In this document: piece after piece, positions 23,310-41,322 of the stretch
Layout: each line of letters starts with the position of its first letter
Numbering within the stretch: the stretch's first letter is position 1
Assembly: GCA_002734085.1 (NCBI GenBank)
Contig: NVXV01000016.1
Span: 7,756 to 71,755 of the forward strand
From: Fluviicola sp.
GTDB lineage: Bacteria; Bacteroidota; Bacteroidia; Flavobacteriales_D; Crocinitomicaceae
Direction: 5' to 3'
Length of the DNA stretch: 64,000 bases
Notes under the pieces: generated by a model
What the model was told of the DNA's origin: nothing
The model's database searches: none
The model's input: only the letters and a program-made list of their open reading frames with translations
Program-made: the position numbers and the translations under genes

Positions 23310-24152
23310 ATGAATAAAATACTTCTATTATCAGTAACGTTTTTAGCGAGTTACATTTGCTTTGGACAAGTGAAAACTCCTCAACTGAGTCCACGTGCTA
23401 CCGTTCAGCAGACGGTTGGGTTAACAAATTTTGAACTAGACTATTCAAGACCATCTGTAAGGGAAAGAAAAATTTTTGGTGAATTATTGTCTTATGGAGA
23501 AATGTGGAGAACAGGAGCCAATAAAAATACTACTTTGTCATTTGATACCGATATTACATTCGGAGGAAAAGAGGTTAAGGCAGGTACTTATGCTGTTTTT
23601 ACGAAAATCAATAAAGATTCTTGGGATATTTATTTGTATTCAGATACTGAGAACTGGGGAACGCCTGAGAAATGGGAAGAAGAAAAAGTTGTTTCTTCTA
23701 TTTCAGTACCAGTGGAAAAAGCGGCTTCTAAAGTGGAAACATTTACGATTTCATTTAATGATATAGGAACTGAGACCTTTAACCTTGTATTTGCTTGGTC
23801 AAATATTCAGTTGACAATAGCTGTCGATTTACCAACGAAAGAGTTAACAGAGGCATCAATTTTAAAAACGATGAATGGACCATCTGATAGAGATTATTAC
23901 GGTGCTGCTAACTATTATTTAGCAAGTGGTGAAAATTTGGAAGAGGCTTTGGATTATATTAAGAAGGCTGTTGAAATGAGAGGAGAAGAAGCATTTTGGT
24001 ATTTAAGAAAACAAGCTTTAATTGAGTTTCAGTTAGGTCAAAAGAAAGCTGCCATTGAAACAGCCAAACGATCTCTATCTTCTGCTGAAAAAGCTGGAAA
24101 CAAGGATTATGTTAATATGAATAAGAAATCTATTGAAGAATGGTCTAAATAG
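23310..24152 (+). CDS. Secreted DUF2911 protein with C-terminal TPR-like helices
   Basis: The 280-residue product has a signal peptide (MNKILLLSVTFLASYICFGQ) and a DUF2911 domain: LSPRATVQQTVGLTNFELDYSRPSVRERKIFG, GEMWRTGANKNTT and AGTYAVFTKI are typical of this Bacteroidota family. Residues ~195-275 form helical, TPR-like repeats (EEALDYIKKAVEMRGEEA, KKAAIETAKRSL). The protein is probably periplasmic or exported. The biochemical role of DUF2911 is not known. It has its own promoter box and terminator, so it is monocistronic. Confidence 0.88.
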   Translation: MNKILLLSVTFLASYICFGQVKTPQLSPRATVQQTVGLTNFELDYSRPSVRERKIFGELLSYGEMWRTGANKNTTLSFDTDITFGGKEVKAGTYAVFTKINKDSWDIYLYSDTENWGTPEKWEEEKVVSSISVPVEKAASKVETFTISFNDIGTETFNLVFAWSNIQLTIAVDLPTKELTEASILKTMNGPSDRDYYGAANYYLASGENLEEALDYIKKAVEMRGEEAFWYLRKQALIEFQLGQKKAAIETAKRSLSSAEKAGNKDYVNMNKKSIEEWSK

Positions 24153-24175
24153 TGACCGTTGTAAGTGATAAACTA

Positions 24176-24205
24176 AAAGGTGGCAATATTTGTCACCTTT
24201 TTTTT
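24176..24205 (+). terminator. Rho-independent terminator of the DUF2911 gene
   Basis: AAAGGTGGCAA pairs with TTGTCACCTTT (one G-T pair) around a TAT loop and is followed by a T-run that reaches the stop of the convergent mltF gene. Confidence 0.85.
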
Positions 24206-25655
24206 ATGCGGGAAAAGCTGTTTTGTACTCTTTATACCTGATAAAGATTGAGCGAACATAATTGAATGTTTCCGAACCTCTTAAATATCCGTAGTAACAA
24301 ACTTCGTCATGATAGTATTTGGGGTTTGACAGATTTTTTATCATTAGCTCTACATTTTCATCCCATATTAATGGATCTTTTCCATATTTGACAGCTAACC
24401 TTTGCGCGTCTAAAATATGACCGAGTCCTGCATTGTATGTGCCTAATGTAAATTTTACTCTTTGTATACTATCAGGTATAGATTCCCATTGGTTGTAGTT
24501 CTTGGTTATCTTTTCCATACCACCTTCAATTTGCACAGATGGTGGCGATGAAGGGTAAACACCGTAAGTAGGACCAGTTCCTGGCATAAACTGCATTAAA
24601 CCGTATGCTCCAGCCCAAGATTCAGAATTTGTTTTGAATTTTGATTCTTGATAAATCAAGGCTGCTAAAAGTCGCCAGTCCCAACCGTACTTTTCAGACA
24701 CTCTTTTAATGTCATCATCAAATCTTGAAATTTCACCTCCACTTATAGACGAGTACTCTTGTTTTGCCTTATTTGAGAAAGAAGACATATTCAGATATTT
24801 GTGCTTGATGTAACTATATGTTGAAGTTTTCATAAAATCATCTAACCAGGCATTTAGTCTTTTTCTCAATAATGGGCTCGTCTTCCTAACTCCAAATGCA
24901 ATTTTTTGCTTTACACTCAACTCAAGGCTTGCGTCTATGTTAGGGTAGAATCGTTGATTGATCAGTGCTACGTTCTTATCGGTCACTGTATAGTCGATGA
25001 ATCCTTTTGAAACCATTTCTATGACATCTTCTGGGATTACATCACCATCTAAACCTTCTAGGTAGATTGTATCCCCTAATTCATCTTGAAGATTTAACAT
25101 TCTTTCGTAGTAACTTGAGTTCTTCCAAACGTGAATTTTTTTACGTGAAAGTTGATCCGGCTCTGTGATTAAATCTTTTTTCCAATCTCTCTTCCTTCTA
25201 CTTCTCCAATCTTCTGGTTTTCTTTGAATAAGAACTTGCGAAGTACGCATAAAAGGTGAAGAGAAATCAATTAACCTTCTCCGTTCTTTTGTTACGGTAT
25301 AATTACAAGAGATGAGGTCGCCTTCTCCATCATTAAGTTTATCGATAATTTCATCGAGATCTTTTACAACTTGAATCTCAAGTTTAACACCTATATCCTC
25401 TGCAAATTCTTTGAGGATTTCATATTCCAGACCCATCTTTTGTCCTTTATAAATAAAATAACTTGTAGCACTATTTTCTGCTAATACCACAAGTTTATTA
25501 TTAGCAAGAATTTCTTTTAGGTCATTGTGCTTTTCCATTTCTGCAGTTCCAACAACTACATTTTCTTTTGGTGTTCTATTTTGACAAGACAGTAGCACAC
25601 TAACAAGTAGTAGTGTAATTAAGGGAATGATATTTTTATATGGAATAAATTTCAA
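24204..25655 (-). CDS. mltF: Membrane-bound lytic murein transglycosylase F
   Basis: MltF cleaves peptidoglycan glycan strands from the periplasmic face of a membrane. The 483-residue protein carries a lipoprotein signal with Cys24 in LLSC, an extracellular solute-binding domain (SBP_bac_3, about 45-290: LEYEILKEFAEDIGV, DLISCNYTVTKERR) and an SLT domain from ~310. The likely catalytic Glu is E337 in ALIYQESKFK, followed by GAYGLMQFMPGT and LGTYNAGLGH. Length and domain order fit the family. It starts 43 bases after the ACP phosphodiesterase gene and is the last gene of this group. Confidence 0.93.
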   Translation of the reverse strand: MKFIPYKNIIPLITLLLVSVLLSCQNRTPKENVVVGTAEMEKHNDLKEILANNKLVVLAENSATSYFIYKGQKMGLEYEILKEFAEDIGVKLEIQVVKDLDEIIDKLNDGEGDLISCNYTVTKERRRLIDFSSPFMRTSQVLIQRKPEDWRSRRKRDWKKDLITEPDQLSRKKIHVWKNSSYYERMLNLQDELGDTIYLEGLDGDVIPEDVIEMVSKGFIDYTVTDKNVALINQRFYPNIDASLELSVKQKIAFGVRKTSPLLRKRLNAWLDDFMKTSTYSYIKHKYLNMSSFSNKAKQEYSSISGGEISRFDDDIKRVSEKYGWDWRLLAALIYQESKFKTNSESWAGAYGLMQFMPGTGPTYGVYPSSPPSVQIEGGMEKITKNYNQWESIPDSIQRVKFTLGTYNAGLGHILDAQRLAVKYGKDPLIWDENVELMIKNLSNPKYYHDEVCYYGYLRGSETFNYVRSIFIRYKEYKTAFPA

Positions 25656-25698
25656 AATTCAAGTATATCTCTAAATATACAATAAATATTTTACTTCA

Positions 25699-26301
25699 TC
25701 AACTTAAAAACTTAATTCGAGCGTCTTTCATGAATTTAAAAAAGACGTTTTCAATATGGTGTTCGCGTTTTTGAAAAATCGAAACAGCCTCATTTAAGTT
25801 GTTGTCAAACGAAATTCTTTTTGATAATCCTGTAGAAGCCATTTTTAATCCATCTAACTTTTTATACTGAGATATCCATGACTTCCTACTCATAATCTCA
25901 ATTAAACCAATAAATTCTGTCGGGTAAGAATAGACCTTATTATCGTAAATAAACCTTTGGTTGGATGCACTTAACGCAAACTGGAAGAATTTTTTTTCAT
26001 AAGATTCAAGATCTATCGGATGATATTTACTCCAGTTTTTAGCTAATAAATGATCCATGTATAGGTCAATCGCAATACTTGCTACCTTCGGTAAATCTTT
26101 GTAAAGAAAAGAGTTTAAAATTTCTAAAATTAATGGATGGTTGTCTATAAAATCGTCAATTTCTCTATGTAGGGTGACGCCTGTTTGTACAATTCGTGGT
26201 AAATATGAATAGTCTCTTCCCTTAACAAAATCACCAAACAGATTAGCTAACATTAAGTCATTTTGGTCGCCAGAAAGATAAAGATGTCCAAGGTAATTCA
26301 T
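25699..26301 (-). CDS. acpH: Acyl carrier protein phosphodiesterase (AcpH family)
   Basis: AcpH-type enzymes remove the 4'-phosphopantetheine group from holo-ACP. The 200-residue product shows the family opening MNYLGHLYLSGDQNDLMLANLFGDFVKG, then LHREIDDFIDNHP and YMDHLLAKNW, whose histidines and aspartates are expected to bind the metal. Length is typical. It lies 20 bases after the PorP/SprF gene and is probably read with the adhesin module, although no functional link is apparent. Confidence 0.88.
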   Translation of the reverse strand: MNYLGHLYLSGDQNDLMLANLFGDFVKGRDYSYLPRIVQTGVTLHREIDDFIDNHPLILEILNSFLYKDLPKVASIAIDLYMDHLLAKNWSKYHPIDLESYEKKFFQFALSASNQRFIYDNKVYSYPTEFIGLIEIMSRKSWISQYKKLDGLKMASTGLSKRISFDNNLNEAVSIFQKREHHIENVFFKFMKDARIKFLS

Positions 26302-26321
26302 CTATTGTTTGATCACCTCTT

Positions 26322-27326
26322 TTAATGAATGAATTTACCTTTTCTATTAAGAATAATGTCATATTTCAATGCAACTTCAAAACCACCAACACTTCCAGAA
26401 GCCGGTAGCATTCTATTGATGTTAGAGTCATATGATGCTGCTATTGTTAGCCCTTGAAAACGGTAGGAGAAATTAGCGATTATTGCATCTCCATATCTAT
26501 GATACAAACCAAATGAAAATACAGTTGGTCTAAAGAAATCAGTTCTAAAAGAAGGTTCTTGAAGATAAAAATCAAAGTTTGAACCATATACTATATTTTG
26601 ATTAGGTCCTTGCATCATTACCAAGACCTGAGGAGAAATACCGAACTTACTTAAGTCAAATTTATAAGTACCTCCAAGTTGAATATTAAACCGTCTATAT
26701 AAACCATCTTCTATATTAAAGTCGAGTTCAGGTTGAGTTATGTGTTGAACTGAAAATCCACCGTAAATTTTTCGAGTAAAGTTTTCTTTATAAGTATAGA
26801 AAAGACCAGCGTTTACGTCAAAATTAGAGGAAGAAGCATTAGCAAGACCTTCACCTTGGATAGCACTATTAAATTCGTATCCTGTCCATTGATTGTCCCA
26901 AGTCAAATTCCCTGGAGATATAGAACGTTGATATAACCCAGGTTGTACTCCTAAGGAAACGAAGTTATTTTCATTTATAAATAGATGATAAGCAATTGGT
27001 ATATTGACTTGTGTTACAGAGTATCTACCATCACCACTCATGTCATTCATAAAAGAACCGCCGATTCCAAAGTATCCATTTCTCCTGTTTGATCGGAACA
27101 ACTTTCCTTCTACTGAACCTGAAATGGTTTGAAAAGGTTTGTCTGTAACAGTAAAATATTGGTATCTAAAATTTGTGAACAACTGCATATCGTTATCATT
27201 TGTACCCACCGCAGCTGGGTTGAATTGCATAGGGTTTTGAAACCACATACTAAAATTTCTTCCCTGCTGAGCATTTACTGATAAGTTAATACAAAGCACT
27301 AGTACAACACAAAAGGTTAATTTCAT
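26322..27326 (-). CDS. PorP/SprF family outer-membrane protein (second copy)
   Basis: A 334-residue beta-barrel protein with a signal peptide (MKLTFCVVLVLCINLSVNA) and the family opening RNFSMWFQNPMQFNPAAVGTNDND, with the NPA motif. The rest shows the glycine/aromatic strand pattern and GGFEVALKYDI near the end. It begins 7 bases after the stop of the PKD adhesin at 27334, so it is probably its dedicated T9SS partner. It is clearly diverged from the copy at 10027. Confidence 0.92.
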   Translation of the reverse strand: MKLTFCVVLVLCINLSVNAQQGRNFSMWFQNPMQFNPAAVGTNDNDMQLFTNFRYQYFTVTDKPFQTISGSVEGKLFRSNRRNGYFGIGGSFMNDMSGDGRYSVTQVNIPIAYHLFINENNFVSLGVQPGLYQRSISPGNLTWDNQWTGYEFNSAIQGEGLANASSSNFDVNAGLFYTYKENFTRKIYGGFSVQHITQPELDFNIEDGLYRRFNIQLGGTYKFDLSKFGISPQVLVMMQGPNQNIVYGSNFDFYLQEPSFRTDFFRPTVFSFGLYHRYGDAIIANFSYRFQGLTIAASYDSNINRMLPASGSVGGFEVALKYDIILNRKGKFIH

Positions 27327-27333
27327 AATTCTA

Positions 27334-29538
27334 TTATTTTACTAATGTTACGTTCCCACTTTTCTCACCACTCTGTCCATTGATTAGGTCATACTTTAAG
27401 GTGTAGACAAATACTCCTTGATTTAATTCCTCTCCATTTAGAGTACCGTCCCAGCCTTCATCTATGTCGTCACTACTATATACCAATTGTCCATAACGGT
27501 TGAAAATATTGAACTCAATTCTTACAATTCCAATTCCTTTCACGTATAATTTATCGTTAAGTCCATCACCATTTGGTGAAAAGGCAGATGGAACATCTAT
27601 AATTTCCTCAAAATTAACTATAACAAGAACAGTGTCTCGACCGATACATCCGTTCGGGCCAACTAACGTTGGGTAATAGGTCGTTGTAAGGTAGGGCGTT
27701 GCAATAACATCTAAGCAAACGTCGCAGTCAATGTTGTCAGCGGGATCCCAATAAAAATCACCAAAACCACTATACGATGCGCTCAATTCAGCAGATCCAC
27801 CAATATCTATAATTGTATCTCCAAATCCTTGAACTTCTGGTAAATCTAAAACAGTAATACTCGTTGTTGACTGGTCTGTACCATTAGCATTAGATACTGT
27901 TAAGGTTACGTCAAACGTTCCAACGGAATCAAAGCAGACCTGAGAAGGATTTTGCTCCGTCGAAGAACTCGGGCTTCCTTCTTCAAATGTCCAGTTCCAA
28001 CTTGTAGGGTTACCTGTAGAAAGATCTGTAAATGAAATACAATCTCCTTTACATACAATACTTGTATCAACACTAAAGTCTGCAATAGGAGGATTTGAAG
28101 TACAACTAGTTACTGTGATTGACTGAGTAATATCATCTGTACCATTATCATCTGTAACAGTTAGTGTAATGTCGTATGTGCCTGCGGTACTATAGCAGAT
28201 ATTTGTAGGATTCTGATCGCTACTTGATGCTGGTGTACCTCCATTAAAAGACCAATCCCAATCAGAAATATTTGTACCCACTGAGTTATCAGATAAATCA
28301 ATACAATCTCCTTCGCAAATATTTGTTGAACTAGCTGTGAAATTAGCTGTTGGTCCTGAACCACAATTGGCCACGTTGATTTGTTGAGTTATGTCATCCG
28401 TGCCGTTGTCATCTGTAACTGTTAATGTCACATCATATGTTCCTGCAGCAGCAAAACAAACATTTGTTGGATCCTGACTATTACTGGAATTAGGAGTTCC
28501 TCCATTGAATGTCCAACTCCATGCGGATACATTTGTTCCAGTTGAATTGTCGGTGAAATCGATACAATCTCCCTCACAAATATCATAAGAAGATGCAGTA
28601 AAATCAGCCGTCGGTCCCGAACCACAAGTTGTCACATTAATTTGTTGAGTGACATCATCCGTACCGTTGTCATCAGTAACTGTTAGCGTGACATCATATG
28701 TCCCAGCAGCAGCAAAACAAACATTTGTTGGATCCTGACTATTACTTGAATTTGGAGTTCCTCCGTTAAACGTCCAGCTCCAAGCTGAGACGTTTGTCCC
28801 AGTTGAGTTATCAGTAAAGTCGATACAATCTCCTTCACATATATCATAAGAAGACGCAGTGAAATCGGCTGTAGGTCCTGATGGGGTTCCAGCAGCGAAT
28901 AGTCTCAAGTTATTTACTGCAAAAGAAGGATCTGTCCCAGCTCCATCATTATCGTTTACCCAATGAAATGCGAAACGTAAATCTGCTTGATTTTCTGCTG
29001 CAACAGGAAGATTAGCAGTAACTTCAGCCCATTCTCCTTGTCCACCTCCGCATGTAGCACCAGGTGTTTGCGTCCAAATTACATTCCACGAAGTGCCCCC
29101 GTCAATACTGTATTCTATTTCAGCAAAATCTTGACCTGCTTGCCCCACACCTATCCAGTCAAAGACTAACTCTAAATTGGTTTCGCCAATTGTAGAAATA
29201 GGTACCGTATAGGCAGCTCTAATGTCAGTTGCACCTGGGAAGCCTAAGCCACCACCATCACCAGCAAAGTAAATTGCACCTGTGCCAGCACATACTGGAC
29301 CTTGACATGTTACATGGAGAGTGTTGTTTCCATTGCCAGCTACACCACAACCTGGTGGTGCTACACCGCCTTCTTCATCACTGATTTTCCAGATATTTGC
29401 ATTTGCATCATTTGGACCAGGTTGTAACGTTAAATCCCAATCACCAGCAGTTCCATTGAAATCATCATTCCAAATCTGCACTTGACTGAAACTATATGAG
29501 ATTATTAGAACAAAAGGAATTAATAAAATACGTTTCAT
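27334..29538 (-). CDS. PKD-repeat surface adhesin with type B T9SS sorting domain
   Basis: 734 residues: signal peptide (MKRILLIPFVLIISYSFSQ), a MAM/jelly-roll-like N-terminal domain (~20-215, VWNDDF...DFAEIEYSIDGGTSW), four consecutive ~87-residue PKD-type repeats (~220-565, each with ICEGDCI or a variant, WSWTFNGGTP, and GTYDVTLTVTDDNGTD), a short linker domain, and a C-terminal type B sorting domain from DVPSAFSPNGDGLND. Repeats 1 and 2 are identical in protein over about 75 residues but differ at many silent sites. The protein is probably displayed on the surface with the help of the PorP/SprF encoded 7 bases downstream. Confidence 0.92.
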   Translation of the reverse strand: MKRILLIPFVLIISYSFSQVQIWNDDFNGTAGDWDLTLQPGPNDANANIWKISDEEGGVAPPGCGVAGNGNNTLHVTCQGPVCAGTGAIYFAGDGGGLGFPGATDIRAAYTVPISTIGETNLELVFDWIGVGQAGQDFAEIEYSIDGGTSWNVIWTQTPGATCGGGQGEWAEVTANLPVAAENQADLRFAFHWVNDNDGAGTDPSFAVNNLRLFAAGTPSGPTADFTASSYDICEGDCIDFTDNSTGTNVSAWSWTFNGGTPNSSNSQDPTNVCFAAAGTYDVTLTVTDDNGTDDVTQQINVTTCGSGPTADFTASSYDICEGDCIDFTDNSTGTNVSAWSWTFNGGTPNSSNSQDPTNVCFAAAGTYDVTLTVTDDNGTDDITQQINVANCGSGPTANFTASSTNICEGDCIDLSDNSVGTNISDWDWSFNGGTPASSSDQNPTNICYSTAGTYDITLTVTDDNGTDDITQSITVTSCTSNPPIADFSVDTSIVCKGDCISFTDLSTGNPTSWNWTFEEGSPSSSTEQNPSQVCFDSVGTFDVTLTVSNANGTDQSTTSITVLDLPEVQGFGDTIIDIGGSAELSASYSGFGDFYWDPADNIDCDVCLDVIATPYLTTTYYPTLVGPNGCIGRDTVLVIVNFEEIIDVPSAFSPNGDGLNDKLYVKGIGIVRIEFNIFNRYGQLVYSSDDIDEGWDGTLNGEELNQGVFVYTLKYDLINGQSGEKSGNVTLVK
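28392..28880 (-). repeat. Two tandem PKD-repeat units with identical protein but diverged DNA
   Basis: The units at about 28653-28880 and 28392-28619 are offset by 261 bases. They encode the same residues from GPTADF to NGTDD, yet I count roughly 25 silent base differences. Confidence 0.85.
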
Positions 29539-29581
29539 AATAAATAGTGTTGTCGTAAGTTAAACATTAACCATCGATTAC

Positions 29582-29589
29582 CAAAATTA
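29582..29589 (-). promoter_or_regulatory. Putative -7 promoter box (TAATTTTG) of the second adhesin module
   Basis: Exact minus-strand TAnnTTTG match 43 bases before the ATG of the PKD adhesin. It probably drives the adhesin, PorP/SprF, acpH and mltF. Confidence 0.45.
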
Positions 29590-29692
29590 GTTAAAATTTT
29601 AGTCATAGTAAAATTATGTGCAAAAAGATATTTTTTAAAAGAAGATGCTTTTTAAGACTACTGTTTAGGGAATTAAAGAAGAAAAAAATAGC

Positions 29693-29700
29693 TAGATTTG
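29693..29700 (+). promoter_or_regulatory. Putative -7 promoter box (TAGATTTG) that overlaps a false TTG start of miaE
   Basis: The last three bases of this exact TAnnTTTG match are the TTG at 29698 that opens the longest frame. If the box is real, that TTG is not transcribed and the ATG at 29716, 15 bases on, is the start. Confidence 0.5.
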
Positions 29701-29715
29701 AAGAAAAAATCAAAT

Positions 29716-30297
29716 ATGTTAGGTTTGAAGCTACCAACAGATCCAAGATGGATTAATATAGTTGAAAAAAACATTGAGGAAATTTTAACTGATCATGCTT
29801 ATTGTGAGCAAAAGGCCGCATCTAATGCTATAACGATTATTGTGAAGTTCCCTCAATACTCAGATGTGGTTCAAGCCATGAGTGAATTGGTTAAAGAAGA
29901 AATTGAACATTTTCAGATGGTTCACCAAGAAATATTGAAAAGAGGGTTGAAATTAGGGAGAGAACGAAAAGACGAATATATTCATGACCTTTTAAGTTTC
30001 ATACGTAAAGGAGGTGATAATGAGCAGCAATTTGTTGAACGAATGTTGTTTGGAGCAATTATTGAAGCTCGAAGCTGTGAACGTTTTCGTATTTTATCGG
30101 AAGAGTTAAGTGATCCAAATCTAAGAGTGTTTTATAGAGAATTAATGGAGAGTGAAGCTAGACATTATACAACCTTCTTAAACTTTGCTAAGAAATACTC
30201 CATGAAAATTGATGTTGACCAAAGGTGGAGAGAGTTTTTAGAGTTTGAGTCTACATTAATGATCAAGTATGGTAAACGAGAAACCATTCATGGATAG
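29716..30297 (+). CDS. miaE: tRNA-(ms2io6A37) hydroxylase-like diiron protein
   Basis: MiaE hydroxylates the isopentenyl group of ms2i6A at position 37 of tRNAs using a diiron centre and O2. The product from ATG 29716 (193 residues) opens MLGLKLPTDPRWINIVEKN, the usual start of the family. Ferritin-like helices with iron-ligand candidates are visible: DHAYCEQKAAS, LVKEEIEHFQMVH, GAIIEARSCERF and LMESEARHYTTF. A TTG-initiated extension of 6 residues is possible but overlaps the promoter box. Monocistronic by spacing. Confidence 0.9.
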   Translation: MLGLKLPTDPRWINIVEKNIEEILTDHAYCEQKAASNAITIIVKFPQYSDVVQAMSELVKEEIEHFQMVHQEILKRGLKLGRERKDEYIHDLLSFIRKGGDNEQQFVERMLFGAIIEARSCERFRILSEELSDPNLRVFYRELMESEARHYTTFLNFAKKYSMKIDVDQRWREFLEFESTLMIKYGKRETIHG

Positions 30298-30364
30298 AAG
30301 CCTTAAGCAAATGAATAAGATTGCTATCTTTTTCAACATTTTATTATCTTCATCCCCGAATAAT

Positions 30365-30372
30365 TAAATTTG
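30365..30372 (+). promoter_or_regulatory. Putative -7 box (TAAATTTG), 4 bases before the YfhO ATG
   Basis: Exact TAnnTTTG match. The distance implies transcription starting at or near the A of the ATG, i.e. a leaderless message. Confidence 0.55.
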
Positions 30373-30376
30373 CATC

Positions 30377-33370
30377 ATGCGAAACATCGATTTTTCTAAA
30401 ATTTTTAAAAATAACTGGATCCATATACTGGCAGTTGGATTATTTTTAATCACTACGTATATTTATTTTCAACCTCAATTTAAAGGTCACCGTTTAGATC
30501 AGCATGATATCGAGCAGTTTCGTGGGATGTCTAATGAAGTTGTGCATTACCGAGATGTTGAGGGAGGTGAGCCATTATGGACCAATTCGATGTTTGGAGG
30601 AATGCCTACATACCAGATTTCAACTCTTTATGAAGGTAACTTACTAAAAAAAGTCACACGATTCTTGAGTTTTGGAATGAGTTCTCCAGCTGGTATATTT
30701 ATTCTTTATCTACTAGGTTTCTACATTATGTTATTGTGTATGCGAGTCAATCCGCGAGTAGCAATTTTTGGTGCGCTTATATTTGCCTTTTCGTCCTATT
30801 TTATAATAATTCTACAGGCTGGGCATAATTCAAAGGCCGCCGCTATTGGACTTATGGGGCCAGTGATTGGCGCATTTTATATGGCTTATCGCTATAATCT
30901 GAGATGGGGTATACTGCTTTCTGCTCTTTTTATGGGAATGCAGTTAACATCAAATCATTTTCAGATCACCTATTACTTGGGTATAATATTAGTAGGCTTT
31001 GGAATTGCCGAATTCGTAAGAGCTTTTAAACACTCTCAATGGAAACGCTTTTTAACGGCGACAATAGGGATTCTTGTCGCGTATTTCTTTGCCTTAGGAA
31101 TAAATTACGGCAATATTTCATTAACGGCAGATTATGCTAAACATACAATTCGAGGAGGAAACGATATAACCATTAATCCTGATGGTACACCGAACGAAGG
31201 GGAGAGCACTTCCGGATTGGATAAGGACTATATTACGCAATGGAGTTACGGAGTAGGTGAGTCCATGACTCTTTTATCACCAAATATTAAAGGAGGATCA
31301 AGTTCAGCTATTCAGAATAGTCAATTTGCTGAAAAGTTGAGAGATCCAGATATGCGTAGAAACGCGAATTTGATAGCAAAGAATAATATTTATTGGGGAG
31401 CTCAGCCATTTGTTTCGGGTCCAGTTTATTTAGGCATAATTGTATTTTTTCTCGCATTATTGGGGATGGTCTACTTAAAAGGTCCTTTAAAATGGACACT
31501 GGCTGGAGTTACGATTCTTGCATTAATGTTGTCATGGGGTAAAAATTTCATGGGGTTAACTGATTTCTTTTTAGATTACCTCCCAGGGTATAATAAATTT
31601 CGTGCAGTTACTATAATACTGTCCGTTGTAGAATTGACCATACCATTATTGGGTGTCCTTTTCTTAAATAAGCTTTTCAAGAAACGTGAAGAAATTAAGA
31701 ATAATATAAAACCATTATTTTATACTTCTGGTGGTCTTTTGGGAATTCTAGTTTTACTTTCTTTTACTGGTTTAGGAGATGGATATCTTTCTCCAGAAGA
31801 AAAAGATATGGCCTATAGTCCGAAAGAATATATTGAGTCACGAAAAGCGGATATTAGAAAACAAATTAAAGAGGATCCGCGAATTCTTCAGCAAAATGGT
31901 ATAAGTATTAATGATAAGGCACAAATTGAAAAACTAGTAGATCAAAATGTTCCAACAGTGGCTCAAATCGATCAGCAATTTGATGCATTGGTTGATTTTA
32001 GGAAATCCATCTTTCAAACGAGTATGTGGAGGTCTATTTTATTCTTGATTTTAGGTATTGGTCTCATACTTATTTATGTCTATACAACTATAATGAAAGA
32101 AATAATTCTCATAGGTCTGGCACTAGTCACCTTAGGGGATTTGATTAGCGTTGATTTAAATTATTTAAATAATAAAAAACAAAAGAATAAAAGGGATTAC
32201 ATTCATTGGATAGAAGATGCCGATTTTGATTATCCACTTGTGCCAACTCAAGCAGATAAACAAATTTTGGAAGCTGAAGTATCTCAAGATCCCGAGTTGA
32301 AAAAGAAAGTTGAAAACGCCCGAGTAAAAAGTGATGGACGTAAAACGAGAGTAAACCCAAGAGCACTTTGGTCAAAGAAGTTTCAGACATTGAATATGAA
32401 TACAAATTACCGTGTTTATGAACAAAGAGCTGGATTTTCAAGTTCTAGACCTTCTTATTTCCATAAGGCATTAAATGGGTATCATGGTGCAAAACTAAGA
32501 CGAATTCAGAATGTGAAAGACTTTCATATTGATCGTGGCAATATGGAGGTGTTTAATATGTTGAATGTCAAATACTTTATCAGCCAAGGTAGAGCTCAGA
32601 AAAACCCAGGAGCTTTAGGAAATGGTTGGTTTGTTAAAACATTGAATGTTCAATCTAATCCAAACAAAGAACTTCTGGCTCTTGGTAGTTTGTTTACCAT
32701 TAATAACTTGGAGAATACATTTCAATTGCATATTAACGATGAAAAAGTTGAGAAAGATACCATTACTGGATTCGAGAATATCCATTTAATCAAAAATACG
32801 GACACATTGTTCTCTGGAGTGAGTCAAATTACTAGATCTAACTTGAATGCTGTTTTTGTGAAAGACGTAAATGGAGAAATGAGTTGGATTCCTTCAAAGG
32901 AACTTCAAAAAGATACGTTGAATAGTTTTACAAAAATAGTTGAGATTAAGCAAGTATATGAATTTAATCCGAAAGAAGAAGCAATTATTAGTGAAGAGGT
33001 TGCAGAAAAAGTGTCTTCTCTTCAGTATTCAGGGAATGGACAAATAGACTTCGTTTCTTATTTGCCGAATGAAATGAAGTGCAGGTTAAGTACAAATGAA
33101 AAACAATTTTTAGTCCTTTCTGAAGTGTATTATCCAAGTGGATGGAAAGCTTATTTAGACGAAAAGGAAGTTGAAATTCATCGTGTGAACTATTTGTTGA
33201 GAGGATTAGAAGTTCCCGCGGGAGATCATGAGTTGGTGATGAAATTCGAAGTACCTAAATTCCACACATCGAATAATATGGCACTTATTGGATCGATTAT
33301 TCTCTTTTTACTAATTGCTGGGGCATTTGTTAAGGACTTTCTAATGAAGAAACAGAAGAATGAAGAATAG
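30377..33370 (+). CDS. YfhO family multi-pass membrane protein
   Basis: The 997-residue protein has about a dozen hydrophobic segments in its N-terminal 600 residues and one at the C-terminus (MALIGSIILFLLIAGAFVKDF), with large extracytoplasmic loops, as in YfhO proteins. Typical elements are the N-terminal DQHDIEQFRGM and LWTNSMFGGMPTYQI segments, and VLSEVYYPSGWKAYLDEKEVEIHRVNYLLRGLEVPAGDH near the end. Gram-positive YfhO glycosylates teichoic acids; in Bacteroidota the substrate is not known, but a GT-C-type role in envelope glycosylation is likely. It leads the polysaccharide-like group: the next gene overlaps by 11 bases. Confidence 0.88.
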   Translation: MRNIDFSKIFKNNWIHILAVGLFLITTYIYFQPQFKGHRLDQHDIEQFRGMSNEVVHYRDVEGGEPLWTNSMFGGMPTYQISTLYEGNLLKKVTRFLSFGMSSPAGIFILYLLGFYIMLLCMRVNPRVAIFGALIFAFSSYFIIILQAGHNSKAAAIGLMGPVIGAFYMAYRYNLRWGILLSALFMGMQLTSNHFQITYYLGIILVGFGIAEFVRAFKHSQWKRFLTATIGILVAYFFALGINYGNISLTADYAKHTIRGGNDITINPDGTPNEGESTSGLDKDYITQWSYGVGESMTLLSPNIKGGSSSAIQNSQFAEKLRDPDMRRNANLIAKNNIYWGAQPFVSGPVYLGIIVFFLALLGMVYLKGPLKWTLAGVTILALMLSWGKNFMGLTDFFLDYLPGYNKFRAVTIILSVVELTIPLLGVLFLNKLFKKREEIKNNIKPLFYTSGGLLGILVLLSFTGLGDGYLSPEEKDMAYSPKEYIESRKADIRKQIKEDPRILQQNGISINDKAQIEKLVDQNVPTVAQIDQQFDALVDFRKSIFQTSMWRSILFLILGIGLILIYVYTTIMKEIILIGLALVTLGDLISVDLNYLNNKKQKNKRDYIHWIEDADFDYPLVPTQADKQILEAEVSQDPELKKKVENARVKSDGRKTRVNPRALWSKKFQTLNMNTNYRVYEQRAGFSSSRPSYFHKALNGYHGAKLRRIQNVKDFHIDRGNMEVFNMLNVKYFISQGRAQKNPGALGNGWFVKTLNVQSNPNKELLALGSLFTINNLENTFQLHINDEKVEKDTITGFENIHLIKNTDTLFSGVSQITRSNLNAVFVKDVNGEMSWIPSKELQKDTLNSFTKIVEIKQVYEFNPKEEAIISEEVAEKVSSLQYSGNGQIDFVSYLPNEMKCRLSTNEKQFLVLSEVYYPSGWKAYLDEKEVEIHRVNYLLRGLEVPAGDHELVMKFEVPKFHTSNNMALIGSIILFLLIAGAFVKDFLMKKQKNEE

Positions 33371-35616: not shown

Positions 35617-36802
35617 ATTTTTTATATATCGACTTAAGTTCTTTTGAAGTTTGCTCCCAGTTATATTTCTCTCGGATTCCCCTTACTGAATTTGCAGACA
35701 TCTTATTATAGAGTTCTTGGTTGTTATAGATTTTTTTTATTGCTTCAGCAATACTTTTTGGGTCTTTTTCTTTGTGAACCAATCCATTTTTTAGTTCTTC
35801 AACAATTTCTTTTTGCGCTGTGGAATCACTAACTATTATAGGGAGGGCTAATGAGGAATACTGAAAGATTTTATTAGCATAAGTCGTATCATGATGAATG
35901 TTTTTATGTAAGGGGCTACACCCTATTTTAGATGACGAAATATATGATTGAAAAAGTTTAAAGGGTTGCCAACCAGTAAGATCTACATATTGTTGAATGT
36001 TTAGTTTTTTTGTTTCCTTTTTTAAGATAAAATCATCCTTACTCTTACCTACTATGACTAGTTTGATATTCGGGATATGATTAATTAATAATGGTATAGA
36101 CCTTATCAAGTCTAAAGTTCCTCTGCGCAATCCAGTCTCACCAAGATAAAGAATTACAAAGTCATTTTTATATCTTTCTTCGATTCTCTGTGAGATACTA
36201 TATTCGGTATAAAATACTTTTCTAATTGTATTTGGAACGACTTTAATTTTATTTTCACTTATACCAACCTCTTTTTGATAATATTTTTTCGCAGAATTTG
36301 TAACTACGATAACATAATCCGCCATCCGTATGTACTTGTATTCATATTTTTTCCAGAGCTTTGGATGAATTAGAATTCTTCCCATTAAACTTTTAACGTG
36401 ACTATAATATTTCATTATTTCAGGTCTGTTTTCATGGAGGTCTAATACTATTCTGAGTTTTTTGTCTCTATTTAACCAAAAAACAGATCTTGCAACTTTC
36501 ATATCATGGATATGAATAATCTGAATATTATTCTTTTCTAAAAAGTCTTTAATTTTAGCTTTTAACAGTAGGTGATATATAGGAAGTGTATAAGCTAGTG
36601 CTGAAAGTTTATAGACAAATTTACCACACTTGTACCTTCTGATGTTAATACCTGAATGGAGATCTTCCTTTGGTAGCTTTGTACCGTCGAGGTCCAAGCA
36701 AAATAAAAAAATTTCGTGCCCTTCTTTTATTAGTGATACAGCTTCATTAACTACCCGAGGATCAGGAGGAAATTGATCATCCAAAATCATTCCTATTTTC
36801 AT
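35609..36802 (-). CDS. GT4-family glycosyltransferase
   Basis: 397 residues with the GT-B fold pattern of family 4 retaining transferases: the N-terminal MKIGMILDDQFPPDPRV loop and VNEAVSLIKEGHEI, the interdomain VIVVTNSAKKYYQKEVGI followed by KIKVVPNTI, then FVILYLGETGLRRG (donor domain start) and the nucleotide-sugar region with YSSLALPIIVSDSTAQKEIV. It probably transfers a sugar during surface polysaccharide assembly, in keeping with the convergent flippase. Donor and acceptor are not predictable. Confidence 0.9.
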   Translation of the reverse strand: MKIGMILDDQFPPDPRVVNEAVSLIKEGHEIFLFCLDLDGTKLPKEDLHSGINIRRYKCGKFVYKLSALAYTLPIYHLLLKAKIKDFLEKNNIQIIHIHDMKVARSVFWLNRDKKLRIVLDLHENRPEIMKYYSHVKSLMGRILIHPKLWKKYEYKYIRMADYVIVVTNSAKKYYQKEVGISENKIKVVPNTIRKVFYTEYSISQRIEERYKNDFVILYLGETGLRRGTLDLIRSIPLLINHIPNIKLVIVGKSKDDFILKKETKKLNIQQYVDLTGWQPFKLFQSYISSSKIGCSPLHKNIHHDTTYANKIFQYSSLALPIIVSDSTAQKEIVEELKNGLVHKEKDPKSIAEAIKKIYNNQELYNKMSANSVRGIREKYNWEQTSKELKSIYKKSN

Positions 36803-36944
36803 CGTCCCTCAATTTTAGAATAAATTCAAGCAAAAATAACAATAATCTCTAAAGTCATTTAAAGTATGATAATATATAAACTTTATATTCACTTATTTTG
36901 ACTTTACAATGATATGATTTATGTTTACAATAAGATTAACAAAT

Positions 36945-37691
36945 ATGACCAAATTATTAACTACATTCCTAGCAGTCCTTGCAACCACATTTTTGTATTC
37001 TCAAGATTTAACAACTGATTTATTAGTTCATTACCCTTTTGATGGTAACGCTCAAGATATCAGTGGTAATGAATTCCATGGAATTCCAAATGCTACATTG
37101 ACTCAAGATAGATTTGGAAATGCAGATAGTGCTTATTATTTTGATGGTATTGATGATTTCATTGATTTGCCAATCAGTCCTGTTTTAAAACCTCAATTAC
37201 CAATTACTTTTTCTTGTTGGGTTAAGTTTGATGTAATTGATGGATATAAGTCAGTAATTGCAACCAATGATTTTGCAACAGATAGCCATTCAGGCGCTTG
37301 GATTAACGTAGGTACTAGTGGTACTTTTTCAGTATCTATTGGAAATAATACTGGAAATACATCAACTCCTAATAGAAGAGGTAAATCTGGAACATCTAAT
37401 TTGTTACCTAATGTTTGGTATCATTTAGTTGCTGTAATTAATGGTCCACAAGATATGGTTCTCTACATAGATTGTCGTGACGATTCTGGAACTTATAATG
37501 GCACTGCTAGTTATATGGCCTATTCAAGTGCCCCTGGTAGTATAGGTAGAAAAGATGCTTATTATGGAGGTCCAGCATCGTATTTTCAGGGTTCACTTGA
37601 TGATTTTAGATATTGGAATAGAGCTTTGACACAAGATGAAGTTGAATATTTATGTCAATTTGATTTAGATCTTGAAGAAAACGAACTGTAA
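36945..37691 (+). pseudogene. LamG-domain secreted protein, 3'-truncated by the IS element
   Basis: The preferred start ATG 36945 opens a signal peptide (MTKLLTTFLAVLATTFLYSQ). One LamG/concanavalin-like domain follows (~25-235: LLVHYPFDGNAQDISGNEFHG, YYFDGIDDFIDLP, SLDDFRYWNRALTQDEV). The reading frame ends DLEENEL with a TAA whose bases lie in the left terminal inverted repeat of the IS. Related proteins usually continue from such an acidic linker into a YPNP-type T9SS sorting domain, which is missing here, so the product would be left unsorted. The lost 3' part is not on the other side of the element. Confidence 0.82.
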
Positions 37692-37713
37692 GCTCCCCCT
37701 TTTTAGGACAGTG

Positions 37714-38541
37714 CTAAATTAAAGAAATCTCATTACTTACTTTCTTTTTCTTTCTGGGGATACCCCCAGAAAGAAATTTTTCGGCATATAAAACAGGCGG
37801 CAGCCTCTTTAAGCTATCGTGTGGACGATGATTGTTGTAATCATGCACCCATTGTTCTGTTTTGTGCCACATTTGCTCCAGACTTTCAAAGATATGAGCA
37901 TTTAGGACTCCCCTTCTAAATGAACCATTAAAACGTTCAATAAACGCATTTTGTGTTGGTTTACCAGGCTGTATGTATAGAAACTCTATACCCTTGGCTA
38001 AACTCCATTCTTTTGCGATCTGAGCGATAAACTCTGGTCCGTTATCCATTCGTACTCTATTTGGTTTTGCCTTTCGCCTTTTCATTAAATGATTAAGTAC
38101 CCAAATAACTCGTTTACTCTTTAGCGAATAATCGATCTCCACGTGTAGGATCTCTCTGTTAGCATCATCAATAACATTAAAACACCGAACTTTTCGTCCG
38201 TTTTCTAATCGGTCTTGCATAAAATCAATCGACCAGGTGTGGTTGAGCTCTTTAGGTACTTCAAGATTAACTTTTGGTCGTGCTGGAAGTCGTTTTTTAG
38301 CCTTTCGCCTTAGTGGCAGCTTAAGCTTTACATATACACGATGTAAGCGCTTATGGTTCCATTCATAGCCTTCTAGGCGCAAACGCCCATATGCCTTCCA
38401 AAAACCTTCCGTAGGATGATCTTTGGCTTTCTTAAGCAAACACTCTTCAACCTCCCTGTCATCTTTTACAGGTTGATAATAAACCACTGATCGACTCATT
38501 TTTAAAACACGACACGCCCTACTGATGCCGTATTGAGCCAT
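37714..38541 (-). CDS. IS3-family transposase OrfB (rve/DDE integrase domain)
   Basis: From its first ATG the frame gives 275 residues. It has an N-terminal HTH_21 segment ([24 protein letters not shown]) and an rve integrase core with the DDE landmarks: IDFMQD (D), [10 protein letters not shown] (D) and the terminal [13 protein letters not shown] (E). In IS3 elements the active transposase is the OrfAB fusion; here the frame is open upstream of the ATG as far as the slippery A AAA AAG, so the ATG at 38541 is probably not the main start. Confidence 0.93.
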
Positions 38542-38573
38542 ATCTTTTGAAATATCACGCTTTTGGTAGGGCT

Positions 38574-38840
38574 TTAAAGCTTTTTTTCGATGATCTCTTT
38601 GGCCATCTGGTGATCCAATGCAAGTTCGGCATACATACGCTTTAACTTACGGTTTTCCTCCTCCAGGGCTTTTAGCTTTTTGAGATCAGAAGCTTCCATG
38701 CCTCCATACTTCTTTTTCCAGTTATACAAAGTCGCTTGACTTATACCATAACTACGGCTTACCTCTGAAGCCGTCTTTCCTGACTCATACTCATTCAGAA
38801 TCTTAATAATCTGACTCGGTGAAAACTTACTCTTTTTCAT
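38574..38840 (-). CDS. IS3-family transposase OrfA
   Basis: The 88-residue protein has a transposase_8 helix-turn-helix ([42 protein letters not shown]) and a leucine-zipper-like coiled coil ([26 protein letters not shown]), as in IS3 OrfA. OrfA binds the IS ends and regulates transposition. Its last codons run over the slippery site and it ends in KKL-TAA. Confidence 0.93.
38580..38586 (-). promoter_or_regulatory. Programmed -1 frameshift heptamer A AAA AAG (OrfA/OrfB)
   Basis: The OrfA codons here read GAA AAA AAG, so the heptamer is in the correct phase for tandem slippage. After a -1 slip the frame continues [18 protein letters not shown] into OrfB without a stop. Confidence 0.85.
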
Positions 38841-38898
38841 AATTTACAGTTTAAATATACTATATTTTTAAACTGTCCAGTTTTTGGGGAAGCTTACA

Positions 38899-39446
38899 AG
38901 AAAGCAGATCAATTATTTGATTATATAACTAATGCAACATTTCGAATGCGAAAAATGGTGGACGACCTATTGGATTATAGTAGTGTGGGACAAGGGAAAG
39001 AAATGATTGAAGTGGATTGCAATAAAGTAGTGGATGATGTTATAAAAGATTTAGAAGCTGTGATAGAAGAATCCAATACGACAATTGAAGTCGCTGAATT
39101 ACCAAAAATAAAGGGGTTTGAATCGGAGTTGCGAATGCTCTTCCAGAATTTAATTAACAATAGTATTAAGTTTAGTAAATCAGGAGTGGCTCCCGTAATA
39201 AAAATTTCGGCAAAGGAGTCCGATAGTTGGATTTTTGCCATACAAGATAATGGAATTGGAATCGAAGAGGAACATATAGATAAAGTCTTTAATGTTTTTC
39301 AACGCTTGCATACGAGGAGTGAAGTTGAAGGTTCTGGTATTGGTCTTGCGCACTGTAAGAAAATAATTGAATTGCATAAAGGTGATATATGGATAGACTC
39401 TAAACCTGGAGAAGGAAGTACTTTTTACTTTAAAATCCCCAAATAA
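38899..39446 (+). pseudogene. Histidine kinase remnant, N-terminus removed at the IS junction
   Basis: The frame is open from the IS edge: ADQLFDYITNATFRMRKMVDDLLDYSSVG resembles the end of a HisKA dimerisation helix, followed by a complete HATPase_c domain (LFQNLINNSIKFS N-box, DNGIGIEEEHIDKVF G1, GSGIGLAHCKKIIELHKGDIW G2). The phospho-accepting His and all sensor domains are missing. An ATG at 38946 would give a 166-residue ATPase-only fragment. The helix ending and LHTRSEVEGSGIGLA style suggest a phytochrome- or PAS-type kinase, but this is only a resemblance. Confidence 0.85.
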
Positions 39447-39583
39447 TTTATAGTTCGTTCAGTACGAATGTATAACAACGAGTGATGCGCTAATTAATAG
39501 GGGGTACTCTAAACTAAAGTATTTATTTCTCCATACAACTTGAGGAACTAAGAGGTAGTAGTTACCCAAACCATCATTATTTT

Positions 39584-39591
39584 TATATTTG
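39584..39591 (+). promoter_or_regulatory. Putative -7 box (TATATTTG), immediately before the bestrophin start
   Basis: Exact TAnnTTTG match ending 2 bases before GTG 39594 and 5 bases before ATG 39597; a leaderless start is implied. Confidence 0.5.
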
Positions 39592-39593
39592 CA

Positions 39594-40472
39594 GTGATGA
39601 TAAAATACAACTCAAAAACCTGGTTTAGACACATTCTTGAATTTCACAAAACCGATACCCTTTGGGCATTTCGGTATGAAATCTTAATAATAGCTTTGTA
39701 TGCAACTGGACTGAGTTATCTTGAAATCACATACCTGTACGAATATGACTCGTTTTTCGAAGCTGTAAATGATGTATTTTCTTTTATTGGTTTTGCTTTT
39801 TCATTGTTACTCGTTTTCCGAATTAATTCTGCCTACGACAAATGGTGGGAAGGTCGAAAACATTGGGGCGCTTTGGTCAACAACTGTAGAAATTTTGCGA
39901 TCAAAGTGAAAGCGATGGTGAGCGATGAGAAAAGTTCGAAAAAAAACATCCTTTATGATTACATGGCAGCATTTCCGTCATCGTTACGGTATCATTTAAG
40001 AGATCAAATAGAAGTAGAAAAGCTCCCGCTAAGTGATGAGCTTAAAAAAAGACTAACAGGTAAAACTCATATTCCAAATGCGATCGCGAGTGAATTGTAT
40101 CAAGAAATTCAACAATTGAAAAAACAAGGAGAACTATCTGAAGAAGAAATGATTATTCTGGATAAAGAATTGAAGTCGCTAACGGATGTACTCGGTGCAT
40201 GTGAACGGATCAAGAAGACACCTATCCCATACAGCTATAATATTTTTTTAAAAAAATTAATCTTCATTTTTGTGGCGATGACTCCTGTCGCTTTTGTCGC
40301 TCAACTGAATTATTGGTCAATTCCAGTAACTGTGCTTGTTTTTTACGTGTTTGTCGGACTCGAATATATTTCAGAAGAAATAGAAGAACCGTTTGGAACC
40401 GATAAGAATGACTTGCCTACCGATGATATGGCCGATACAATTTATGGGAATATTCAGGAGATAAGGTCGTAG
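39594..40472 (+). CDS. Bestrophin family ion channel protein
   Basis: The ~292-residue protein opens KTWFRHILEFHKTDTLWAFRYEILIIALYA and has the family signature VFRINSAYDKWWEGRKHWGALVNNCRNF, plus a C-terminal FVGLEYISEEIEEPFGTDKNDLPTDDM. Bacterial bestrophins are pentameric cation or anion channels in the inner membrane. The start is ambiguous between GTG 39594 and the adjacent ATG 39597, a one-residue difference. It stands alone, between the kinase remnant and a CPBP-type gene. Confidence 0.92.
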   Translation: MMIKYNSKTWFRHILEFHKTDTLWAFRYEILIIALYATGLSYLEITYLYEYDSFFEAVNDVFSFIGFAFSLLLVFRINSAYDKWWEGRKHWGALVNNCRNFAIKVKAMVSDEKSSKKNILYDYMAAFPSSLRYHLRDQIEVEKLPLSDELKKRLTGKTHIPNAIASELYQEIQQLKKQGELSEEEMIILDKELKSLTDVLGACERIKKTPIPYSYNIFLKKLIFIFVAMTPVAFVAQLNYWSIPVTVLVFYVFVGLEYISEEIEEPFGTDKNDLPTDDMADTIYGNIQEIRS

Positions 40473-40553
40473 TTTTAGAGGTTAACCGTCTGTTCCTCTT
40501 CGAGTATCTTTTGTAACTCAGACAATCAAATCTTAGTATCTAAAGATTAATAA

Positions 40554-40570
40554 TTTAATCGTAAATTTGA
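40554..40570 (+). promoter_or_regulatory. Promoter element TTTAATCGTAAATTTGA of the CPBP-type gene, shared with the CrtA-like gene
   Basis: Contains an exact TAnnTTTG (40562-40569), 51 bases before the TTG start of the CPBP-type gene. The same 17 bases occur at 53009-53025 before the CrtA-like gene. Confidence 0.5.
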
Positions 40571-40620
40571 CTAATTCAAGTATATAAGTTAAATCTACGA
40601 CAACAAATAAATAGTAAAAA

Positions 40621-41322
40621 TTGAAGAATACCTCGTCCCATAGTTCTATCAAAAAATCATTATTTCTAATTATTCTTTGGGGTTTAATTCTTGAGTATCC
40701 CTTTCGATATTTCGTTTCTCCAGATCCGTGGATTCATAGTTCGAGTAATTGGTATTTTGATCAACCTGACCGTGTTTTAGTTGAATTAGGATTTGTCCTT
40801 CTTGCCTTATTGCCTTTTTTCTGGGTGAAAGAACTGAAAAATCTATTAATTATAAAATGGACAAAAAACAACCTGTTATTTCTCTCTTTTGGAGTACTGG
40901 GTTCTATTATAGTTTTTGGACTACAGCAATGGGAGGAGATCGAAATTATTCAGCAAAAGAACTTAGGACAATATGTTCCGCTTTGGCTGCTAACAGGATT
41001 GGTAGTCGGTTTTGCACAAGAGTTAACTTTTAGAGGCTTAATTTATACAGGTATTTTTAAAAAATACGGAATAAAAACAGCGGTAGTAATCTCTACTTTA
41101 TGCTTTGCGTTGGGTTCGATCCATAGCGTTAGGTTGTATGCCTATTTCATCAATGATTACATTTTAGAAGCTTTGCTTCTTCTGGTTATATTTATTCTTG
41201 CAGGTCTATTTTTCGTATGGGTTAGAATCAAAACAAATAATATTATTATCCCAGCCATAATTCATGGTGTTGGTAATGCAGTAACATGGTCTACATTTGT
41301 TGTAGTTAAATTGTATGTTTGA
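40621..41322 (+). CDS. CPBP family membrane protein (putative intramembrane protease) with Gln in place of the first Glu
   Basis: The 233-residue protein has about seven hydrophobic segments. The CPBP/CAAX-like core is present as VGFAQELTFRGLIYTGIFKKYG, ALGSIHSVRL and IPAIIHGVGNA. The usual EExxxR motif reads Q133-E134-x3-R138, so the first, normally catalytic Glu is Gln. Histidine positions are kept. Family members cleave prenylated or other membrane substrates, or serve bacteriocin immunity; with Gln the protein may be non-proteolytic. The start is TTG; no alternative precedes the first helix. Confidence 0.8.
   Translation: MKNTSSHSSIKKSLFLIILWGLILEYPFRYFVSPDPWIHSSSNWYFDQPDRVLVELGFVLLALLPFFWVKELKNLLIIKWTKNNLLFLSFGVLGSIIVFGLQQWEEIEIIQQKNLGQYVPLWLLTGLVVGFAQELTFRGLIYTGIFKKYGIKTAVVISTLCFALGSIHSVRLYAYFINDYILEALLLLVIFILAGLFFVWVRIKTNNIIIPAIIHGVGNAVTWSTFVVVKLYV

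Follow-up and report, generated by a model that had tools for sequence, protein, structure and literature searches.

In P. gingivalis genomes assembled with A5-miseq/SPAdes, two thirds of the breaking points were copies of an insertion sequence (IS) or of a MITE, according to one study (PMC5771137). The same study describes translocated or inverted blocks when published P. gingivalis genomes are set against long-read ones, and traces the block differences of one strain to wrongly assembled rRNA operons (PMC5771137). The locus described here lies in a 64,000-nucleotide stretch of DNA that was analysed as a whole, hereafter the window (G000:C33:7756-71755; G000 is the genome from which it was taken and C-numbers are the contigs of that genome), in which a complete IS joins the 5' part of one gene to the 3' part of another. 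Most likely, the IS and both insertions are ordinary and the junction between them is an assembly artefact.

The genome is a draft of 4.03 Mb in 36 contigs, with an estimated completeness of 99.89% and an estimated contamination of 0.23%. Nine congeners (given G-numbers, including G002-G004 and G007-G009) served for comparison, and the gene to the left of the IS was searched for as DNA over 58 relatives.

Results

The reading frame to the left of the IS (36921-37691) contains a Laminin_G_3 (LamG) lectin domain in profile searches and lacks a T9SS tail, while the frame to its right, taken from the first ATG (38946-39446), contains HATPase_c with an overlapping HATPase_c_5 and no HisKA. The initial annotation had read the junction as an IS between halves of two unrelated genes, had seen no target-site duplication and had concluded that a single insertion into a single gene could not be the origin. 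The follow-up bears out each of these points: the four flanking bases at the window junction are GAAC on the left and AGAA on the right, so a duplication is absent there, the two sides belong to a LamG protein and a kinase, and the halves restore two separate genes when completed from elsewhere in the genome. The features are collected in Table 1.

Table 1. Features at the IS junction and at related sites; positions without a contig are those of the window
Feature	Position	Strand	Basis or remark
Gene block, including a YfhO-like protein (30377-33370)	23310..33370		Reaches into C26 genes in 9/9 congeners
LamG (Laminin_G_3) secreted protein gene, 5' part	36921..37686	+	ORF, profile search; 3' end on C26
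Target duplication of IS copy A, left half (GAAC)	37683..37686		Partner GAAC on C26, beside its IS stub
Complete IS3-family insertion sequence, 1212 bp	37687..38898	-	DNA search, ORFs, profile search
IS terminal inverted repeat, one end	37687..37699		12/13 bases agree between the two ends
orfB, transposase with integrase core (rve, rve_3)	37714..38541	-	Profile search
orfA, HTH_Tnp_1 transposase subunit	38574..38840	-	HTH_Tnp_1 E 4.7e-25
A7G run close to the orfA end	38580..38587	-	Sequence inspection
IS terminal inverted repeat, other end	38886..38898		
Target duplication of IS copy B, right half (AGAA)	38899..38902		Partner AGAA at the IS end on C3
Histidine kinase gene, 3' part (HATPase_c)	38899..39446	+	5' half on C3
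Bestrophin-like gene right of the junction	39594..40472	+	
Third IS copy	G000:C2:1-99 + G000:C36:1-98		CTAT duplication; interrupts an HNH_5 endonuclease-like gene
Fourth IS, right end	G000:C23:148999-149096 (L013 end)		Duplication bases CACG
Incomplete rRNA operon	G000:C22:144842-149408 + end of C17		
LamG paralogue, uninterrupted	G000:C30:247261-247931 (L002)		71% DNA identity over the matched part

The element in the window runs from TGTAAGCT to AGCTTACA, and its ends, written in inverted orientation as TGTAAGCTCCCCC and TGTAAGCTTCCCC, agree at 12 of the 13 terminal bases. Its orfB reaches 204.8 bits against the NCBIfam IS3 model NF033516 (cut-off 160) and is in frame -1 relative to orfA; the A7G run is presumably the site of a -1 frameshift, as general knowledge of the IS3 family would have it. 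The type of orfB, the helix-turn-helix domain of orfA and the A-rich slip site that leads into a -1-frame orfB all point to the IS3 family. The inverted repeats agree with that assignment, as does a short target duplication, found at three sites once flanks were paired across contigs. Among 72,556 plasmid records nothing matched over 80% of the element's length (best match 66% over 67%), no DNA match was present in the nine congeners, and a 26-position pattern of the left end had 0 matches in public genome contigs, a collection from which the genome's own or near-own records may be left out. A search of 36000-41000 against Rfam matched nothing.

Searching the locus against its own genome returned five further IS ends, 98-99 bp long and each exactly at the tip of a contig: left ends at tips of C2 and C3, right ends at tips of C26, C36 and C23. 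C33, which holds the window, is the only contig with a full copy. C26 stops 99 bp inside the same IS and the T9SS sorting domain of the LamG protein reads on from there; C3 stops equally far inside it and bears the N-terminal half of the kinase with the start of HisKA. The 3' end of the LamG gene and the 5' end of the kinase gene, which the initial annotation had suggested seeking beside another copy of the IS, therefore do exist elsewhere, each next to a 99-bp stub. Judged by four distinct right flanks, the genome contains at least four copies, and these are identical over the comparable 98-99 bases at each end.

Combining the three left flanks with the four right flanks gives 12 pairings, each of which was tested for a 4-bp duplication. 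Three have one: LamG with C26 (GAAC), C3 with the kinase (AGAA) and C2 with C36 (CTAT). Of the other nine, the pairing of C3 with C26 shares three bases (GAA), two share one base and six share none. The chance of finding partners for all three left flanks is about 4e-6, and none of 200,000 random draws did so. At the window junction the target duplications are thus swapped, GAAC belonging with C26 and AGAA with C3, as a recombinant junction would have them and as a misjoin in the assembly equally predicts.

When the IS and one copy of the duplication were left out and the flanks joined, the LamG gene and C26 gave an uninterrupted frame of 335 aa from its ATG with a Por_Secre_tail (E 2.1e-10), and C3 and the 3' part of the kinase gene gave an uninterrupted frame of 358 aa from its ATG with HisKA (9.5e-14) and HATPase_c (1.4e-26). 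The C2/C36 site without the IS encodes an HNH_5 protein in the profile search. Since the duplications pair and the frames are restored, copies A and B and the one at C2/C36 all resemble simple insertions. For the copy on C23 the left partner with CACG is missing: the genome has three left ends at up to 3 mismatches, and none with CACG was found among the 72 contig tips. That flank may have been lost to a length filter, because the shortest contig is 5,544 bp. The reading frame that the IS end on C23 breaks up has a GPRGTGKT motif which, by eye, is Walker-A-like. A paralogue of the LamG gene on C30 is a single ORF of 346 aa, the C-terminus of which appears by eye to be a sorting tail.

Comparison of both tips of all 36 contigs (72 tips) identified 25 pairs with identical tips, of which 14 share exactly 99 bases, 10 share 97-98 and one shares 40, so that 99 bases is the longest identical stretch between any two. 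In our reading, this ceiling is what a de Bruijn graph with k = 99 produces when it breaks at repeats. Not every contig end follows the pattern: 30 of the 72 tips have no stretch in common with any other, and the comparison also returned eight short dovetail overlaps, 21-57 bases long. The rRNA operon is cut as well: C22 terminates within the 23S rRNA, and the final 99 bases of C17 are found again approximately 0.5 kb ahead of the 16S gene on C22, which makes a second rRNA operon likely, though one 16S gene was found. The IS behaves as a collapsed repeat would, in that it is repeated, its five stubs measure 98-99 bp and 24 of the 25 tip-sharing pairs in the assembly share 97-99 bases.

The minimum of 5,544 bp among the 36 contigs suggests that a length filter was applied. 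Length filters are common for genomes binned from metagenomes, and such an origin would suit a mixed population, in which parental and recombined arrangements coexisted among the sequenced cells and the assembler picked the recombined one. A mixture agrees with all of the results, but the contamination estimate of 0.23% speaks against it and we regard it as very improbable.

On the LamG side, gene order in the relatives leads from the window into C26. In 9/9 congeners a single contig carries both the YfhO-like gene of the window and the CtpA-like gene of C26, in the same orientation and 1,676-9,841 bases apart, and further genes of the window-left and C26 sides surround them. In G000 the corresponding spacing, counted through the LamG gene and C26 with the IS left out, is 8,741 bases and falls inside the congener range. 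The interval also contains flippase- and glycosyltransferase-like genes (29-31% identical) in G008 and G009, and in G008 SpeE- and arginase-like genes too. DNA search found the LamG gene in 0/9 congeners, which is why no exact empty site is visible in them; beyond the genome itself, matches came from just 4 of the 58 relatives, all of them short and none of them in a congener. A relative in which the LamG and kinase parts form one gene, named in advance as the counter-case to look for, was not seen, in keeping with the two genes that the halves restore.

Conservation of the wider block was followed in the best 80 of 138 YfhO relatives, where many of the loci are short, and a CtpA-like or SpeE match was present in 12 of these 80. 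Seven of the 80 loci are congeners already counted and so are not independent; in each of the seven at least the next C26 gene is retained. Five of the 12 loci with a match are from outside the genus (L126, L131, L158, L163 and L171), and in three of them the match has the opposite orientation.

These data bear directly on a deletion next to the IS, which had been proposed initially as one way to fuse the two genes, with loss of the DNA between them and possibly of the rest of the polysaccharide cluster. The junction by itself, with two half genes and no duplication, would fit such an event. However, the DNA beyond the IS is carried by C26 and C3, which hold both missing halves and the genes that neighbour them, and its presence in the genome contradicts an adjacent deletion with loss of the cluster. 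Furthermore, the duplication partner of the right half of the kinase gene sits at another IS copy, and a one-ended deletion would leave no such partner. The conserved interval shows no shortening either, with 8.7 kb here and 1.7-9.8 kb in the congeners. Neither the deletion nor the suggested loss of polysaccharide genes stands, and a deletion is hardly credible as the origin of this junction.

Gene-order support is thinner on the kinase side than on the LamG side. There is no clear orthologue of the kinase in the congeners, the highest-scoring match being 44% identical over residues 129-357 only, so that, as for the LamG gene, the comparison was one of gene order. Bestrophin is present in only 3/9 congeners. 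In G009, Sua5, a gene of C3, lies approximately 10 kb from bestrophin in the expected order and orientation, while in G003 and G004 no C3 gene was found within roughly 20 kb around bestrophin. G007 is the only congener with Lon (on C3) on the same contig as the Mur ligase from the right side of the IS, at a distance of approximately 0.53 Mb. The Mur ligase and YfhO are on separate contigs in 7/9 congeners and 0.21 and 0.68 Mb apart in the other two, a separation that agrees with a non-ancestral linkage in the window, within the limits set by contig breaks. In G007, the least fragmented congener, the C3 and C33 genes are scattered within the 360 kb that were covered. GC skew of the four flanks, used as a test for a flip between replication strands, was noisy. 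Farther right in the window (43869-52463) lies a gene for a secreted protein of 2864 aa, which contains many repeated units and looks adhesin-like by eye.

Discussion

The data show crosswise target duplications, two restored reading frames and a conserved gene order on the LamG side. Because the duplications pair crosswise and the congeners keep the order that leads from the window into C26, the left and right flanks that meet in the window belong to two different IS copies. It is probably a chimera of two loci, in which two ordinary IS insertions were cross-joined during assembly. One IS3-family element would have inserted at least four times in this genome, at three of the sites with the 4-bp duplication of ordinary transposition, copy A entering the gene for a LamG-T9SS protein and copy B that for a histidine kinase. 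With copies identical at the compared ends, the IS would apparently be too long for the assembly to bridge, and the assembler may have retained a single full copy, each of the other flanks ending in a stub of 98-99 bp. In C33 it would then have entered the IS by the left flank of copy A and left it by the right flank of copy B. We infer that the crossing arose during assembly and was not an event in the cell.

Recombination between two IS copies, as put forward in the initial annotation, is correct insofar as the flanks of two different copies are joined, as the crosswise duplications attest; that a physical crossover joined them is less probable. Had copy A really recombined with copy B by homology in the sequenced strain, the expected trace would be exactly the crosswise duplications and the two restorable genes. 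If the copies were inverted on the chromosome, the outcome would be an inversion with the reciprocal junction C3-IS-C26 (kinase 5', IS, LamG 3') and nothing lost, and the unpaired C3 and C26 ends, both of which finish in the IS, could be that reciprocal product. Both copies are oriented alike relative to the genes that they interrupt, and after a reciprocal crossover the duplications and contig ends would be no different from those of a misjoin. Sites in direct orientation, on the other hand, would split the chromosome, yet both segments are present; this weighs little, as the orientation markers in G007 are inconsistent, with YfhO and Lon in the same direction and the Mur ligase marker without a consistent orientation. 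A further objection is that a crossover is an extra event in G000, given that the LamG-side order is intact in 9/9 congeners, while unresolved repeats are common in this assembly. We therefore consider it unlikely, though a good deal less so than a mixture or a deletion, that homologous recombination produced the junction, and there is a similarly small chance that the junction is real, the product of a recent inversion involving two copies of an IS that has no match in the nine congeners. Were the inversion true, a neighbourhood kept in 9/9 congeners would be broken up in this strain, and its chromosome layout would differ from that of the genus at the end of the polysaccharide region.

The misjoin accounts for the junction at least as well as a crossover and needs one event fewer. 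It is the likeliest explanation because repeats fragment this assembly, in which contig ends have at most 99 bases in common, and because the rRNA operon is cut too. The weights given here to misjoin, crossover, mixture and deletion are judgements and were not computed.

A junction of half gene, IS and half gene in a draft genome can resemble a rearrangement, and pairing the target duplications across the IS-bearing contig ends offers a quick test. The two sides of 37687-38898 should be treated as unlinked until confirmed by reads or PCR; for example, the link between the polysaccharide genes and the genes for bestrophin and the giant adhesin is unreliable.

In the P. gingivalis study, misassembly rests on long reads and PCR (PMC5771137), whereas at this locus it is deduced from duplications and gene order. 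In having target duplications swapped between two copies, the locus resembles IS-IS recombination by inversion or excision, which gene order in relatives and the behaviour of the assembly make the second choice for the window. The element differs from known IS3 elements in having no near-identical copy among the plasmid records or congeners searched. It is like the IS3 family in its HTH_Tnp_1 orfA and its rve orfB scoring over the IS3 cut-off, in its TG...CA ends, short inverted repeats and A-run at the orfA/orfB border, and, with flanks paired across contigs, in the 4-bp target duplications of its copies.
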